Assembly: GCF_000376845.1 (NCBI RefSeq)
Contig: NZ_AQXY01000025.1
Coordinates: forward strand, 1-64,000
Reading direction: 5' to 3'
Length of the DNA stretch: 64,000 nucleotides
Source of the DNA: Thioalkalivibrio sp. ALE14
GTDB lineage: Bacteria > Pseudomonadota > Gammaproteobacteria > Ectothiorhodospirales > Ectothiorhodospiraceae
The notes beneath the pieces were generated by a model. That model saw nothing but the letters and a program-made list of their open reading frames with translations. It was not told where the DNA came from and ran no database searches. The position numbers were made by a program, and so were the translations under genes. Shown here in pieces: positions 46,293 to 51,491 of the stretch (position 1 is the first letter of the stretch; each line of letters begins with the position of its first letter).

Positions 46293-47384
46293 CTAGCGCG
46301 AGCCCTCGGCCTTGCGCGCCTCGGCCTCGCGGCGTTGCTCCGGGGTGAGCTGCTGGTGGACGTAGTCGCGGGCCTCTGCGGCCGGCTTGTGGCCCTGATC
46401 GGCGGCGCGCGCGAACCAGACCCAGGCGCCGGGCAGGTCGGCCTCCACGCCACGGCCCTCGGCGAGCACGATGCCCATGTTGTACTGCGCCGGGGCCAGC
46501 CCCTGCCGCGCCGAGGCCAGGTACCAGGCGGCCGCGGCCGACTCGTCCTGAGCCACCCCAAGCCCCCGTTCCAGGAGGACGCCCAGGTTCGCCTGGGCCT
46601 GGGGATGGCCGGCTTCGGCCGCGGCGCGATACCAGTGGGCCGACGCCGTCAGGTCTTCCTGCGTGCCGTTGCCGTCGCGGCAGAGGTTGCCCAGGCGGGC
46701 GGCGGCGTCCGGGTCACCGGCCTCGGCGGCTTGCCGATACCAGTGGGCGGCCTTGGACATGTCCGTTGCTACGCCGTCGCCCTGTTCCAGGGCCAGGGCG
46801 AGGTTGAAGGCCGCGTCGCGGTGTCCCGCCTCGGCGGCCCGGGCGTAGTACTCGGCTGCCGCAGCCCGGTCGCGCGCGCACCCGCTGCCTTGCTGGTGCG
46901 CGACGCCGAGACTGTTCAGGGCGTCGGGGTCGCCGTGCTCCGCGGCGCGTTTCCACCACTGGATCGCCTCTTTGGCGGCCGCTTCACCGCCCCGGTTCAG
47001 CAGCAGCACTGCCAGATTGTTCTGCGCCACCACGTGCCCGGCCTCGGCCGCGCGGCCATACCAGTGTCGCGCCGTATCCGTATCCGCCGGGTCCGCCTTC
47101 TCGGCCATCACGCCCATGTTGAAGCTGGCATCGATCAGCCCCTGCTCCGCGGCCTGTGACCAGTACTCGCGCGCACGCCCCGCGTCCGCCTCCACCCCCA
47201 GTCCCTCGGCATAGAGGATGCCCATACCCAGCTGCGCCCAGGCCCATCCGGCCTCCGCGCGGGCCTCCCAGATCTCCCGGGCCGCCTGGTAGTCGCCCCG
47301 TTCGAAAGCGGCAAAACCGTCCTGGTCGGCGCCGCTCGGGCATTTTGGGTTCGCGGGGTTGTCGGGCTGGGTAGACGCGTTCAT
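46293..47384 (-). CDS. Sel1-like repeat (TPR-type) protein
   Basis: The 363-residue product has eight complete Sel1-like repeats and a partial ninth, for example GWAWAQLGMGILYAEGLGV, GHVVAQNNLAVLLLNRGG and GLAPAQYNMGIVLAEGRGV. Such solenoids bind partner proteins. There is no signal peptide. The first ~68 codons and 200 bp upstream are duplicated at 48720-49126. The start at 47384 (MNASTQPDN) is conserved in both copies. Confidence 0.9.
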   Translation of the reverse strand: MNASTQPDNPANPKCPSGADQDGFAAFERGDYQAAREIWEARAEAGWAWAQLGMGILYAEGLGVEADAGRAREYWSQAAEQGLIDASFNMGVMAEKADPADTDTARHWYGRAAEAGHVVAQNNLAVLLLNRGGEAAAKEAIQWWKRAAEHGDPDALNSLGVAHQQGSGCARDRAAAAEYYARAAEAGHRDAAFNLALALEQGDGVATDMSKAAHWYRQAAEAGDPDAAARLGNLCRDGNGTQEDLTASAHWYRAAAEAGHPQAQANLGVLLERGLGVAQDESAAAAWYLASARQGLAPAQYNMGIVLAEGRGVEADLPGAWVWFARAADQGHKPAAEARDYVHQQLTPEQRREAEARKAEGSR

Positions 47385-47588
47385 GAAAGCAGCACTCGGT
47401 GGGGGACACCGCCCGAGGATACAACCCCGGAAGCCCATCGCAAGGCTTACGCAGGACCATCCGTCAGGTTGGCCGTAAAAGTCCTTGGCGGCCCATTTTT
47501 AGCCCAAAAATGGCTGTTTAAGGCCGTATGAGGCGCTTGGTGTGGCTCTTACCGCACTATGTTCAGTGGTTTACCGAGGTCCGACCCC
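47181..47588. repeat. ~408-bp direct repeat, copy 1 (5' end of the Sel1 gene plus upstream)
   Basis: Bases 47181-47588 and 48720-49126 are near-identical over the coding part (one substitution, T to G, was noted) and more diverged upstream. The repeat covers the first 68 codons of the Sel1 gene, its promoter region and a ~100-bp tail that ends in GGTCCGACCCC. Between the copies lies a HigBA module. The tail itself recurs in diverged form at 49186-49300. Confidence 0.9.
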
Positions 47589-47677: not shown

Positions 47678-47995
47678 CTACGCGGCTGGCTGCCCGTTTT
47701 CTCTGTGCCCATCGAACCGCATCTTTTGCACGGCGTCCAGCTTCACGCTCTTCCGTGCGCACCAGAGGTCGTGCTGGTCCTGCATGGCCAGCCAGCTTTC
47801 CGGCGAACGGCCGAGCGTTTTGGAAAGACGCAGTGCCATCTCGGGGCTGACTCCGCTTCGTCCGTGCAGGACGCGCCCCAGGGTGGAAGGCGACACATCG
47901 AGCTTGCTGGCAAGCTGGCGGGCACTCAGTCCAAACGGCTCCAGGTAGACCTCGCGAATGAACTCGCCCGGGTGCGGAGGGTTGTGCATGGTCAT
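47678..47995 (-). CDS. higA: HigA-family antitoxin (XRE type)
   Basis: The 105-residue product starts MTMHNPPHPGEFIREVYLEP, then LSARQLASKLDVSPSTLGRV and GVSPEMALRLSKTLGRSPES, the HigA/VapI HTH family pattern. It binds the toxin and represses the operon. The gene order toxin then antitoxin is typical for higBA. The start overlaps the toxin stop by one base (TGATG). Confidence 0.93.
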   Translation of the reverse strand: MTMHNPPHPGEFIREVYLEPFGLSARQLASKLDVSPSTLGRVLHGRSGVSPEMALRLSKTLGRSPESWLAMQDQHDLWCARKSVKLDAVQKMRFDGHRENGQPAA

Positions 47996-48273
47996 CAGTG
48001 GTAATCCTCGTAGTCCAGGATATGGACATTCCCGTCATGGAATTCGAAGGTCAGGCGCCAGTTGCCGCTGACCCGGATGCTCCAGCGATCCTGTGCGGTG
48101 CCCTTGAGTCGGTGCAGGTGGAACCCGGGGATATCCATGTCTTCGATCGTGGACGCGGTATCCAGGGCGGCCAGTTGCATCCTCAGACGTCCTGCATGTC
48201 GAGGTTGGATGCCACTAACGCTGCCCGACTCGTAGAAGCGGCGCAGTCCCTTGTGCCGAAACGACTTGATCAT
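47995..48273 (-). CDS. higB: HigB-family toxin (RelE-like mRNA interferase)
   Basis: The 92-residue product has MIKSFRHKGLRRFYESGS, then RLRMQLAALDTAST, HRLKGTAQDRWSIRVSGNWRLTF and DYEDYH at the end, the HigB signature. HigB cleaves mRNA on the ribosome. The start at 48273 is 17 bp from a TTGCG/CGCAA palindrome. The whole module lies between two long direct repeats. Confidence 0.93.
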   Translation of the reverse strand: MIKSFRHKGLRRFYESGSVSGIQPRHAGRLRMQLAALDTASTIEDMDIPGFHLHRLKGTAQDRWSIRVSGNWRLTFEFHDGNVHILDYEDYH

Positions 48274-48290
48274 GTCTTGAGTGTAGCGGA

Positions 48291-48305
48291 TTGCGCAATA
48301 CGCAA
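48291..48305. promoter_or_regulatory. Inverted repeat at the higBA promoter
   Basis: On the minus strand TTGCG-TATTG-CGCAA lies 17 bp upstream of the higB start codon, a sensible place for HigA autoregulation. The binding specificity of this HigA is not known. Confidence 0.45.
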
Positions 48306-48359
48306 CACCTGGCGCACGAACCCAGCATCGAAGAAAGTGGGTGTCCACTACTCGAGGAG

Positions 48360-48578
48360 CCCCTGGAGCCATCTTCGGCCAGCACCTGCTACGGTCTGAT
48401 CACGCCGGACTACGGCGTCAGCATCGCCGCCGTGTACCAGTACCAAGACGGCGCCCAGGCGGCCGTCGAAGGCTCCGGTGACGTCAGTCCGCTGGGCCAG
48501 TCCTCGACCTTCCGCCGCCAGGAGGCCGAACACACCCGCGCCTGGTACGCCGGCATCACTCAGGACATTTGGGGCTAG
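48360..48578 (+). pseudogene. Possible gene remnant
   Basis: A frame ending at 48578 reads CYGLITPDYGVSIAAVYQYQ, then RRQEAEHTRAWYAGITQDIWG. The composition looks protein-like, but there is no start codon with a ribosome site, and the frame upstream runs through the higBA promoter. I do not recognise the family. It could be the 3' remnant of a gene broken when this region was rearranged. Confidence 0.25.
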
Positions 48579-48719
48579 GCCCCGGCCTTCTCCCTGCCAC
48601 TTCGATCGGCGCCTCCGGGCGCCGAGTTCGTTTCCGGGCAGGTCCGAAGAAAGTGGGTGTCCCGTACTAATGCAGTGGTACGGAGGCAAAAGGCAAGGTT
48701 TGACCCCCGTGACCTGTCT

Positions 48720-48923
48720 CGCGTCCGCCTCCACCCCCAGTCCCTCGGCATAGAGGATGCCCATACCCAGCTGCGCCCAGGCCCATCCGGCCTCCGCGCG
48801 GGCCTCCCAGATCTCCCGGGCCGCCTGGTAGTCGCCCCGTTCGAAAGCGGCAAAACCGTCCTGGTCGGCGCCGCTCGGGCATTTGGGGTTCGCGGGGTTG
48901 TCGGGCTGGGTAGACGCGTTCAT
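48720..48923 (-). pseudogene. Truncated second copy of the Sel1 gene (5' end only)
   Basis: From ATG 48923 the first 68 codons match the intact Sel1 gene at 47384 except for one substitution noted, then similarity stops at 48720 and the frame runs into unrelated sequence (reading to a stop at 48348). The remaining repeats are missing, so it cannot make a working solenoid. Its upstream region is also duplicated. Confidence 0.85.
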
Positions 48924-49126
48924 GAAAGCAGCACTCGGTGGGGGACACCGCCCGAGGATACAACCCCGGAAGCCCATCGCAAGGCTTACGCAGGACCATC
49001 CGTCAGGCTAGCCGCGAAAATCCTTGGCGGCCCGTTTTTCCCGAAAATTGGCTGTTTAGGGCCGTATGAGGCGCTTGGTTTGGCTCTTACCGCCCTATGT
49101 TCAGTGCCTTACCGGGGTCCGACCCC
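48720..49126. repeat. ~407-bp direct repeat, copy 2
   Basis: See 47181-47588 for the extent. The left edge (48720) is directly preceded by AAAGGCAAGGTTTGACCCCC (from 48691), a dispersed motif also at 44080. The right edge ends in GGTCCGACCCC, also a dispersed motif. The repeat borders thus coincide with short dispersed motifs. Confidence 0.9.
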
Positions 49127-49300: not shown

Positions 49301-49389
49301 CGTAATGCTCCGGGCGCAAAAATAAATCTGTCCCCTTTTTGGTTTCTCTACTCGACGTTAGCATGATTAGGGCGCGGACCCAGACGAAC

Positions 49390-49614
49390 CTAGGAGCGCG
49401 GAGCCCCGACTTTTCTAACTCGTCGGGCCTTGGGGCCCTTTGGTGCGTGTTCTACTAAAAATTCGACTTGGTCTCCAGGTGATACGAGCTTGTCATCTCC
49501 TTCGATATCTGCGTAAAACACAAATACGTCCTTTCCTTTTTCGCGCCTAATAAAGCCAAACCCCTTAAGTGGGTCAAAGGTTTTGATCTCTCCGAACTCT
49601 GACTGATCGCCCAT
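49390..49614 (-). CDS. Cold-shock-domain protein next to a reverse transcriptase
   Basis: The 74-residue product is one cold-shock domain: FGEIKTFDPLKGFGFIRRE with RNP1 (KGFGFI), KDVFVFYADIEG with RNP2 (DVFVFY), and a basic tail KGPKARRVRKVG. Such domains bind single-stranded RNA or DNA. It starts 2 bp after the stop codon of the reverse transcriptase gene, so it is part of the same unit. Its GC content is low like the reverse transcriptase, unlike chromosomal csp genes of a high-GC genome. It may bind the RNA or cDNA made by the reverse transcriptase (inference). Confidence 0.9.
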   Translation of the reverse strand: MGDQSEFGEIKTFDPLKGFGFIRREKGKDVFVFYADIEGDDKLVSPGDQVEFLVEHAPKGPKARRVRKVGAPRS

Positions 49615-49616
49615 AT

Positions 49617-50813
49617 CTATTTTATTTCCCAGTAGTCTTTTATCGTGGGTTTATTCGGGTAAGCGGCGACAACTTGACGCCGGAGTGATCGCGCAAGCCG
49701 CTTGTCAGTTCTGGATAAAAGGCCCACCTTGTGGATAGCTCTGTTTACCCTCAGGATATGCCCAATGCGGTCCGTGTTTCTTCTGCTCTTGTTTGCGAGC
49801 TTTTTGCACTCAAGGATCAGATTATCTTTTTCTTGGTCGCCGATCTGGGGGAGTATTTTTCGCATTCGGGCGCGAAGTGGTTGGGCTTGGCTGTGTCCAA
49901 GTCGTTTAAGCTTGGCGATCTTTCCTGATGCTTGGTTCCACATTGAATGGTATTCAGGTGACGCGGGGTCAGTTGTGAATCGATTCTCACAGTCGTGCAC
50001 CATTTTTCGGATCGCTCTCCGTTCGTGGCGGGGGACTTTTGGAACGGAGTGTTTAGCCCACAGTCCTGTGACGATGTAATCAGAGTCTCTCTGGTGGACT
50101 CTGTCGACACGTGTCTTTTTGTTGTTGAGTTTCAATCCATGTTTTTTGCACATCGCTGCAACCGACCGAATGATTTCGGTGGTCTTGGCGGGCGTCAGCT
50201 GTTTTGGGCTTGAAATAGTTATGTCGTCCAGCAGCCGTGTGTACGCGATCGCCTGCCGCTCAAATGAGGCCGCGAGTTGATATTCGGCGTTAAAAAATAT
50301 GAGATTCGCTAAGTAAGATGAGGTGCACGCCCCTTGTGGCAGGCGGTGATGCCGTACGCAAAGCGTGGTAAGGAGGTCGGAGACGGGTTCGGGAAACCGC
50401 AGTAGGTAGCGGAAAATATCATATACGTTCTGGCGCCGTATGTTCGGGTAGAAGTTCTTTATGTCGAGCTTAATGATGGTGGACGCACCCGCATGTGCGG
50501 ACGCGTTCGAGACATAGTCTCGGGGCTCTTCGAGGTCGCGAATGCCGCCCATAAGGTAAAGTGGGTACTCCACTTTCTCCAAAATGGTACGATTGATTCG
50601 TTTTTGTATTTTCTTGAGTGTGAACTTGGGTTCAGAAACGTTTCGTTCTTTCCCGGAAGGTGTGGTGATGGTGAAGTCTGTGTAAGAATCATCTGTCCGG
50701 TTGGCGATGTCGGTCAGAATCTTAGGGTGAACGCCGAGCATCCTGGCGAGCGTTTCTACCGAGCCGATGGGCTTGTAAGGGTAATGCGGTTTTTTCGCGG
50801 ATTTCTGAGGCAT
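49617..50813 (-). CDS. Retron-like reverse transcriptase
   Basis: The 398-residue product has an N-terminal region like retron reverse transcriptases (LARMLGVHPKILTDIA, FTLKKIQKRINRTILE), the first catalytic Asp at about 117 in STIIKLDIKNFYPNIRRQ, then HHRLPQGACTSSYLANL, the catalytic pair at about 196-197 in IAYTRLLDDITIS, HGLKLNNKKTR and IVTGLW (VTG motif of retron enzymes). The usual Y-x-D-D is L-L-D-D here. There is no maturase or endonuclease domain, so it is not a group II intron protein. The C-terminus is basic and helical. GC is clearly lower than flanking genes, which suggests transfer. It is preceded by a small membrane-protein gene (28 bp) and followed by a cold-shock gene (2 bp). 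Confidence 0.92.
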   Translation of the reverse strand: MPQKSAKKPHYPYKPIGSVETLARMLGVHPKILTDIANRTDDSYTDFTITTPSGKERNVSEPKFTLKKIQKRINRTILEKVEYPLYLMGGIRDLEEPRDYVSNASAHAGASTIIKLDIKNFYPNIRRQNVYDIFRYLLRFPEPVSDLLTTLCVRHHRLPQGACTSSYLANLIFFNAEYQLAASFERQAIAYTRLLDDITISSPKQLTPAKTTEIIRSVAAMCKKHGLKLNNKKTRVDRVHQRDSDYIVTGLWAKHSVPKVPRHERRAIRKMVHDCENRFTTDPASPEYHSMWNQASGKIAKLKRLGHSQAQPLRARMRKILPQIGDQEKDNLILECKKLANKSRRNTDRIGHILRVNRAIHKVGLLSRTDKRLARSLRRQVVAAYPNKPTIKDYWEIK

Positions 50814-50841
50814 GAAAAATAAAAAAGCTAGGAGTCGATCA

Positions 50842-51042
50842 TTACAATAGCAGGTGCGAAGACCATACTGTAAGTTTTATGATCAGAAGTAGGAAAGCCG
50901 TAATACCGGTCAATCCGCCCTTCTTGCCTGATCCAACCTGCGTTTCGGAATCGTGGCTCTCTCGAGCGGTACGTTCCGCGCTATCTGTGTCCTCTTGTCG
51001 AAAAAGGACGGTCACTGACACATGCACGATTGCTCGTTTCAT
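50842..51042 (-). CDS. Small single-pass membrane protein, first gene of the reverse transcriptase unit
   Basis: The 66-residue product has an N-terminal beta-like part (MKRAIVHVSVTVLFRQEDTD), a charged middle and one membrane segment near the C-terminus (GLTGITAFLLLIIKLTVWSS). AAGGAG lies 8 bases before the ATG, a strong site that supports translation. It is 28 bp upstream of the reverse transcriptase and shares its low GC. I do not recognise a family. It could be a membrane effector, as small membrane proteins are in some retrons, but a non-coding role for this DNA is also possible because one arm of a long inverted repeat lies inside it (51013-51025). Confidence 0.55.
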   Translation of the reverse strand: MKRAIVHVSVTVLFRQEDTDSAERTARESHDSETQVGSGKKGGLTGITAFLLLIIKLTVWSSHLLL

Positions 51043-51289
51043 TTGTTACTCCTTATGTTTTTGGCTAAACGACGGATTTCGTTTAGCGCCAGACCAAACA
51101 TTCAGAGCATCGGGAATTGGTGTATTGGAATCAGGCAGACTCCGTAGCATGTGCGCCAGACAAGAGTCGCCCCTCATTGCGTAGCACGGCGTGCGGCGCG
51201 GGTGGGGGGTCCTGTTGGCCGGTCATGATCCCGCAAGGGGATCGCCTAGGGCGTCGTTTTCCCGAGGGTCGAAACGGCATGTGTCAGTG
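51013..51289 (-). ncRNA. Candidate structured RNA (msr-msd-like) of the reverse transcriptase unit
   Basis: On the minus strand CACTGACACATGC (51289-51277) and GCATGTGTCAGTG (51025-51013) are a 13-bp perfect inverted repeat enclosing 251 nt, the layout of the a1/a2 arms of retron RNAs. Between them lie hairpins: CGTTT..CCCTCGGG..AAACG (51256-51276), GATCCC-CTTGC-GGGATC (51227-51243), GCAC-GCC-GTGC (near 51185), GACTC...GAGTC (51138-51168), and CTAAACGA/TCGTTTAG extended by GGC/GCC (51064-51089). The second arm is inside the small membrane-protein gene, which is unusual for retrons. No YYAGC-like priming site was identified. Confidence 0.35.
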
Positions 51290-51491
51290 TTGTCAAAGAG
51301 CGAAGCAGCTTGGCGGTGTCACCAAGTGTGGTCATCTTCGCACAGGATCCCCTGCAATGGGAAGGGGTGCTTGCGGATTAGTGAGGGCGTGGTGTTCAGC
51401 TGGGCTGACTGGTCGCTCCCGCTGAAGGGTTGGAAGGGCATGGGATTCCTGTACGGTTTCGAAGCGTAGCTCGCGTCATTGTCATGCGGCG
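51043..51491. other. 449-bp leader between modC and the reverse transcriptase unit
   Basis: No gene is supported here. Besides the hairpins listed for the candidate RNA, CTTGG-CGGTGTCA-CCAAG lies at 51309-51326. A TTGACA box on the minus strand (51291-51296) could be a -35 element; the matching -10 is weak (TTCGAC). The 3' end of modC borders it at 51492. Confidence 0.5.

Follow-up and report, generated by a model that had tools for sequence, protein, structure and literature searches.

The stretch of DNA analysed here (the window) comprises positions 1 to 64,000 of contig NZ_AQXY01000025.1 from Thioalkalivibrio sp. ALE14. On its minus strand the window carries a reverse transcriptase (RT) gene, with a cold-shock gene downstream and a small open reading frame (ORF) upstream. 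Coordinates are listed in Table 1. The RT frame contains 398 codons and no internal stop. Compared with the PADLOC profiles, the RT matched RT_V (7e-158), RT_IV (1.3e-72) and RT_VI (1.8e-70), and it is the sole RT_V match in its genome. The cold-shock gene begins 2 nucleotides (nt) downstream of the RT. Its 74-residue product matched PADLOC CSD_V (1.9e-28) and the NCBIfam model NF038236, 'retron Se72 family effector protein' (89.9 bits; cut-off 82). Because of the RT_V and CSD_V/NCBIfam Se72 matches, the pair is classified, by sequence, as a type V (Se72-family) retron. The arrangement is that of retron Se72 (Retron-Sen1) from small enterobacterial plasmids, where an RT of the RT_V family has a cold-shock partner directly downstream and a repeat-flanked ORF upstream. 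The window RT is ~41% identical to the plasmid Se72-type copies. The contig here is chromosomal. An Rfam scan matched no retron family; the lone match was below its gathering score.

Table 1. Features of the retron locus, in window coordinates.
Feature	Position	Strand	Basis or remark
Type V retron RT, 398 amino acids	49617..50813	minus	PADLOC RT_V 7e-158; tree and alignment with 26 type V relatives; model pLDDT 91.6
LLDD codons, RT residues 194-197	50223..50234	minus	Leu194 unchanged across the 26 type V RTs aligned
Cold-shock-domain protein of type V retrons (NCBIfam Se72 family 'effector'), 74 amino acids	49390..49614	minus	CSD_V 1.9e-28; NF038236
Small ORF, 66 amino acids, unannotated in relatives; predicted C-terminal hydrophobic helix 43-65; proposed membrane toxin	50842..51042	minus	In 27/27 and 3/3 held-out loci
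Shine-Dalgarno sequence AAGGAG of small ORF	51049..51054	minus	
Inverted repeat around small ORF, 5' arm (GCTAcGGAGTC)	51138..51148	minus	Weak by itself in the window
Inverted repeat, 3' arm (GACTCCTAGC), just past the small ORF stop	50827..50836	minus	
Conserved element CGACnnTTGTCTGGC; probably the msd stem's 3' end (putative role)	51155..51169	minus	GACnnTTGTC[TA]GG in 20/27 type V loci
Conserved GGTCTGGC between 5' repeat arm and Shine-Dalgarno sequence	51088..51095	minus	Alignment A2, which holds only 19 loci; GGTC and GG invariant
Pair of adjacent hairpins, then ATGACCGG; probable msr (putative role)	51219..51253	minus	

The initial annotation of the window had drawn attention to an LLDD tetrad, in place of YxDD, at RT residues 194-197. 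This placement was confirmed. The quoted peptide, IAYTRLLDDITIS, is RT residues 189-201 (window 50211-50249), and the coordinates first given for it (50213-50245) hold within a few bases. The first Asp motif, LDIKNFYPN, is kept upstream of LLDD, again as described. In a local alignment with the RT of retron Ec86, ytrLLDDitis lies over ytrYADDltls without a gap, and the first Leu replaces Tyr. Because this alignment is gapless, and because modelled strands surround the DD turn (see below), the register of the motif is secure. Chance is not an issue, since LLDD lies in frame within a conserved protein. Chance or a frame error behind LLDD was rejected, the frame being uninterrupted and the motif in register. 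The RT also has NAxxH (N103 and H107) and VTG (V248, T249 and G250) motifs. Both are invariant in 26 aligned type V RTs, and both are described as retron RT hallmarks in the available text of PMC6868368.

An AlphaFold2 model of the RT was built from 22 type V sequences. The mean predicted local distance difference test (pLDDT) score was 91.6, and residues 190-194 and 197-202 form two strands that flank the DD turn. The top matches among solved structures were all retron RTs: Eco2 (Z 25.6; root mean square deviation (rmsd) 2.9 over 292), Ec86 (Z 24.8; rmsd 3.2 over 292) and Ec78 (Z 24.4; rmsd 2.8 over 290). Matches to group II intron, diversity-generating retroelement (DGR) and defence-associated RT (DRT) folds were discounted as indicators of identity; they reflect the common RT fold. 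The Ec86 and Eco2 enzymes, which are YADD RTs, have their fold and motif order in common with the window RT. They differ in having Tyr where the window RT has Leu194, and in their effectors. Nothing in the model suggests a broken palm. On the palm strand, just ahead of the Asp pair, Leu would stand in for Tyr; the metal-binding residues would be undisturbed and the enzyme would remain active. An earlier suggestion that the RT may still be active can be sharpened. The Tyr is indeed replaced, but the regions of the catalytic Asp residues are preserved and the model has a normal retron RT fold, which makes activity likely. It is highly improbable that LLDD is a relic in a decaying, inactive RT. 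The motif does depart from the usual retron tetrad YxDD. However, the frame is full length, the invariant catalytic and retron motifs are common to 26 relatives, and both the predicted fold and the partner gene are intact.

RTs for comparison were gathered from plasmids, one GTDB genome-contig scan, viral contigs, 274 genomes of the class, and the genus. The motif table has 79 rows. Twenty-nine score above 340 bits; two of these (L007 and L080) are the window again, which leaves 27 type V loci, the window included. The 340-bit cut was chosen after seeing a gap between 343.1 and 262.8 bits. Two of the loci, L003 and L006, are near-copies; L006 was omitted from alignments A3 and A4, and is therefore absent wherever 26 are counted. 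All 27 loci have Leu as the first motif residue (25 LLDD and 2 LIDD); none has Tyr or Phe. In the alignment of 26 type V RTs, every member of which matches RT_V, L194 does not vary, and L195 belongs to the group conserved in at least 90%. A cold-shock ORF follows the RT in all 26 loci with sequence there, and the 27th, L006, stops at the record end. Conversely, the 50 rows below the cut, which include two double listings (L031 and L032), have Tyr (26 rows), Phe (14), Leu (2, both type IV copies) or Trp (1) as the first motif residue, and 7 have no recognised motif. A single-protein search of the viral contigs found no relatives; searching them with alignment A1 found two type V loci.

The window aside, 398 genomes drawn later from the phylum yielded six matches at E 1e-60 or better. 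Three of them, L104 and L105 (both LLDD) and L106 (LVDD), have a cold-shock ORF downstream. These three are the held-out loci; they were taken on account of that ORF, and they also have the three best scores. For L107 (LIDD), L108 (FVDD) and L109 (FIDD), no downstream cold-shock ORF was present in the printed output. A tree built from 63 RTs requires 2 changes of the Leu label, compared with 20.9 for shuffled labels, and the starred branches force only 1 change. The tree omits 9 named rows, 6 rows without a recognised motif and one row by a length rule; the software warned that L082/L083 and L053 are possibly joined falsely by long branches. Every type V RT sampled thus has Leu (27/27 and 3/3); some RTs outside type V have it too.

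The exceptions include members of the same genus. Among 30 genomes of the genus searched, four have an RT match; one is the window's own and the others are L081, L082 and L083. L082 is type IV by PADLOC (RT_IV 6.1e-165) and L083 is nearly identical. Both have a Leu-first motif (LVDD). Unlike the type V loci, the stretches printed for them contain neither a small ORF with a Shine-Dalgarno (SD) sequence nor a cold-shock ORF. L081 groups among type VI-like RTs linked to helix-turn-helix (HTH) genes. As a separate observation, L008, L054, L081, L108 and L109 are RTs with a Tyr or Phe motif and an HTH gene directly upstream (identified by eye for L054 and L081). The RT_V profile slightly outscores RT_VI on L008, L054 and L081; therefore, profile-only typing may misfile such RTs.

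The clade with the Leu motif includes small-plasmid systems whose cold-shock gene is the NCBI 'retron Se72 family effector'. Leu is found in the motif of relatives of the window RT on plasmids of E. coli, Klebsiella, Hafnia and Pectobacterium. In the available part of PMC6868368, Se72 is a retron with an unusual double-stranded DNA product, made by self-priming and with no 2'-5' linkage observed. Since Leu is common to a type V clade that contains reportedly active Se72 systems, LLDD is very probably a clade marker, the ordinary motif of type V (Se72) retron RTs. The initial annotation had presented LLDD as a peculiarity of this enzyme, and had accepted that it would be only a marker if common in a known active clade. 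The second alternative is what we found; Leu occurs throughout type V (27 of 27 loci and the 3 later ones), and Se72 is described as DNA-making. A substitution unique to this enzyme was rejected on the same counts, and LLDD need not be chased as a single-enzyme oddity.

Some points pull in the other direction. The published Se72 RT is placed in the Leu clade by its family name and plasmid context, so that the assignment is a probable one. The available text of PMC6868368 gives YADD as the norm for retron RTs, with variants such as YCDD, and LLDD goes unmentioned there. The RT_V profile also matches at E 0.001 in Methanosarcina acetivorans, one of 14 control genomes; therefore, weak RT_V matches alone do not establish a type V retron. 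In favour of the clade-marker reading, a 1996 paper, to judge from its title, describes an E. coli RT with LVDD. Hence, a Leu-first retron RT motif has been in print for decades. As in the window, Leu replaces the Tyr of YxDD in that enzyme, although the retron is of a different type. A literature search on LLDD in retrons returned one unrelated paper. The LVDD of telomerase is a further comparison, for which no usable paper was found. We take the 1996 enzyme to be Ec78. A search for a Leu-first motif in the solved Ec78 chains did not confirm this; a fragment of L082 spanning the motif matched Ec86 chains alone, and PMC11555353 did not contain the relevant terms.

Leu could be more than a marker. 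As an adaptive change in type V RTs it would alter fidelity, nucleotide choice or priming, and could, for example, make possible the self-priming and the double-stranded DNA described for Se72 (PMC6868368, available part), for which 2'-5' linkage was not observed. Leu has been kept in 27 + 3 loci while neighbouring positions vary. Furthermore, in the available text of PMC12405507, Tyr199 of Eco2 contacts the two newest DNA bases near the active site; hence, an effect of Leu is conceivable. However, fixation in one clade can be plain ancestry, as the 2 label changes on the tree illustrate. Leu is also present in the type IV loci L082 and L083, and in L107, with no cold-shock neighbour in the printed stretches. 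We consider an adaptive role unlikely. Type V RTs with Leu and type VI-like RTs with Tyr or Phe do provide a comparative set for the role of the YxDD aromatic residue in retrons.

The part of the locus that deserves attention is the unannotated small ORF. All 27 type V loci have an ORF of 52-74 codons immediately before the RT, with 19-60 nt between the two (held-out loci included). We also applied a strict rule (ATG start, SD sequence, at least 50 codons and an end no more than 65 nt from the RT). Such ORFs occur in 26 of the 27 loci, compared with 0.17 expected from dinucleotide shuffles. The sole exception, L006, has the same small ORF with no recognised SD sequence. All three held-out loci have the ORF (62 amino acids in L104 and 67 in both L105 and L106). 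None was printed for L107, and L108 and L109 have HTH genes there instead.

The small peptides have a mean column identity of 18%. Across type V loci they share a layout, with a polar or basic first part and a more hydrophobic C-terminal end. The highest 15-residue hydropathy ranges from 0.75 to 2.57 over 26 loci; it is 2.07 in the window and lowest in the L046/L048/L051 group. The model of the window peptide is poor (pLDDT 60.9) and has one helix, at residues 43-65. Comparison with PADLOC, Pfam and NCBIfam gave chance-level single matches only (four peptides were scanned against NCBIfam). In RefSeq E. coli, 28/28 records with the enterobacterial version show no annotated feature at the small ORF. 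An ORF flanked by repeats has already been noticed in Se72 (PMC6868368, section 8, available part). Our literature search for descriptions of a small ORF or toxin within type V retrons found none in titles or abstract openings, though one may stand in the Se72 primary papers. PMC12548924 does not mention type V, cold shock, a small ORF or transmembrane segments. An upstream small ORF with a hydrophobic C-terminal end was also seen at L010 (~1076-1402), where the RT has FIDD and falls outside the type V cut. Small hydrophobic-ended ORFs may, by sequence, extend beyond type V.

The small ORF might alternatively be no gene, its open frame being a by-product of a conserved RNA structure (the alternative msr suggested for Se72); the cold-shock protein would then be the effector, as its database name has it. 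The divergence of the peptide fits this explanation, as do the unannotated E. coli records and the lack of a family match in the databases searched. RNA across the small ORF is strongly structured (z -5.06 for window 50820-51170 and z -3.93 for L004). The ratio of non-synonymous to synonymous substitution (dN/dS) reaches 1.03 in more distant pairs; the five values are 0.82, 1.03, 0.63, 0.43 and 0.55 (L003 and L006 are identical). Conversely, four close pairs gave 0.49 (L004/L005), 0.31 (L039/L040), 0.52 (L048/L052) and 0.21 (L078/L079). Substitutions pooled from these pairs fall 33, 35 and 56 times at the three codon positions (p 0.02). The length of the ORF is constant in all four pairs, whereas their 200-nt leaders hold 14 gap columns. 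Because the same stretch is strongly structured, slowed change in the small ORF could come from the RNA alone. The excess of strict ORFs over shuffles and the 3/3 held-out loci also speak for a gene, and we regard a left-over frame as somewhat unlikely.

The RNA upstream has a recurrent layout. Two adjacent hairpins followed by ACCGG lie further upstream of the inverted repeat. The second hairpin is found in 24/27 type V loci, compared with 7.4 expected, and the stem sequences differ. The hairpins would be the msr and the variable stretch after them the msd. The repeat arms around the small ORF vary between loci yet remain complementary. For 14 representatives (these, and the kin groups behind them, were chosen by eye), the true arm pairing score was 344; permuted arms had a mean of 245 and a maximum of 314, and 0/5000 permutations reached 344. 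The locus's own 3' arm outscores every unrelated arm in 16/27 loci; the others are the window, L003, L006, L034, L037, L038, L041, L048, L049, L051 and L052. When window 50820-51170 was folded, the inverted repeat formed the closing stem. Mean pairing of the SD sequence over 26 loci was 0.82, compared with 0.68 for shuffled flanks. It was 0.67 compared with 0.65 in the window, and likewise not raised in several other loci. Two results from the window sit poorly with the layout proposed. Its repeat, GGAGTC/GACTCC plus a bulged GCTA, is short and no better than shuffled sequence, and the proposed msr-msd stretch likewise shows no folding advantage over shuffled sequence (z -0.16 and -0.18). Se72, for its part, is without an apparent conserved priming guanosine, according to the available text of PMC6868368.

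A further element lies upstream of these features. The sequence CGCTCTTTGACAA, at window 51290-51302 (minus), resembles the boxA antitermination element. GCTCTTT occurs 40-140 nt before ACCGG in 12/27 type V loci, and GTTCTTT in 4 more. Transcription of the retron RNA may involve antitermination.

The small ORF product, a short peptide with a predicted hydrophobic C-terminal helix and a structured message, resembles the small hydrophobic toxins of type I toxin-antitoxin systems. The small ORF differs in having no family match and in lying within a retron. We tentatively propose, from sequence, that it encodes a membrane toxin carried in the retron RNA, with the cold-shock protein as regulator. 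Type V retrons would then be three-protein systems in which the retron RNA doubles as a membrane-toxin message, an arrangement to which we give a little less than an even chance. We know of no catalytic activity for the type V effector. A lone cold-shock domain would be a strange toxin, and the conserved, unannotated peptide ORF is a concrete candidate effector.

The proposed mechanism can be outlined as follows. The type V retron would be an anti-phage element, in which the RT uses a structured RNA, encoded immediately before its gene, as template for multicopy DNA (msDNA). The inverted repeat would close off the toxin coding region, with the ribosome-binding site tending to be folded away. 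The membrane-acting toxin would be restrained by this surrounding RNA structure, by reverse transcription, or by both. Reverse transcription (or the bound RT-DNA complex), together with the cold-shock protein acting as an RNA- or single-stranded DNA-binding regulator, would keep the toxin untranslated. Se72 is activated by phage RecBCD inhibitors, according to the available part of PMC12409349. By analogy, phage disturbance of RecBCD would release a toxic output, and interference with RecBCD or msDNA would permit toxin synthesis. The cold-shock protein, an 'effector' in the databases, would be a regulator and not the toxin. If this is true, reverse transcription could directly gate translation of a peptide in the retron RNA.

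The genomic site was compared in five genomes of the same genus. The end of modC is conserved, and nothing in window 49304-51489 matched the 8.2 kb beyond it. In one of these genomes (L098), the ORFs at the site resemble, by eye, a restriction-modification system of type I together with a DNA methyltransferase. Different cargo at the same site in the genus fits a defence element.

Other repeats and genes lie nearby. A direct duplication of ~281 bp (window 47181-47461 and 48720-49000) is near-identical (100% when rounded) and not letter-for-letter. The duplicated DNA is the 5' end of a Sel1-repeat-like gene, and between its copies lie two genes that by eye are HigB/HigA-like (47678-47995 and 47995-48372, both minus). 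Parts of these two genes are also found close to the same site in L098, L099, L100 and L102. Window 48680-48707 is a small dispersed repeat of ~22-28 nt, with six other copies in the genome (one each in contigs C3 and C9, and two each in contigs C28 and C31).
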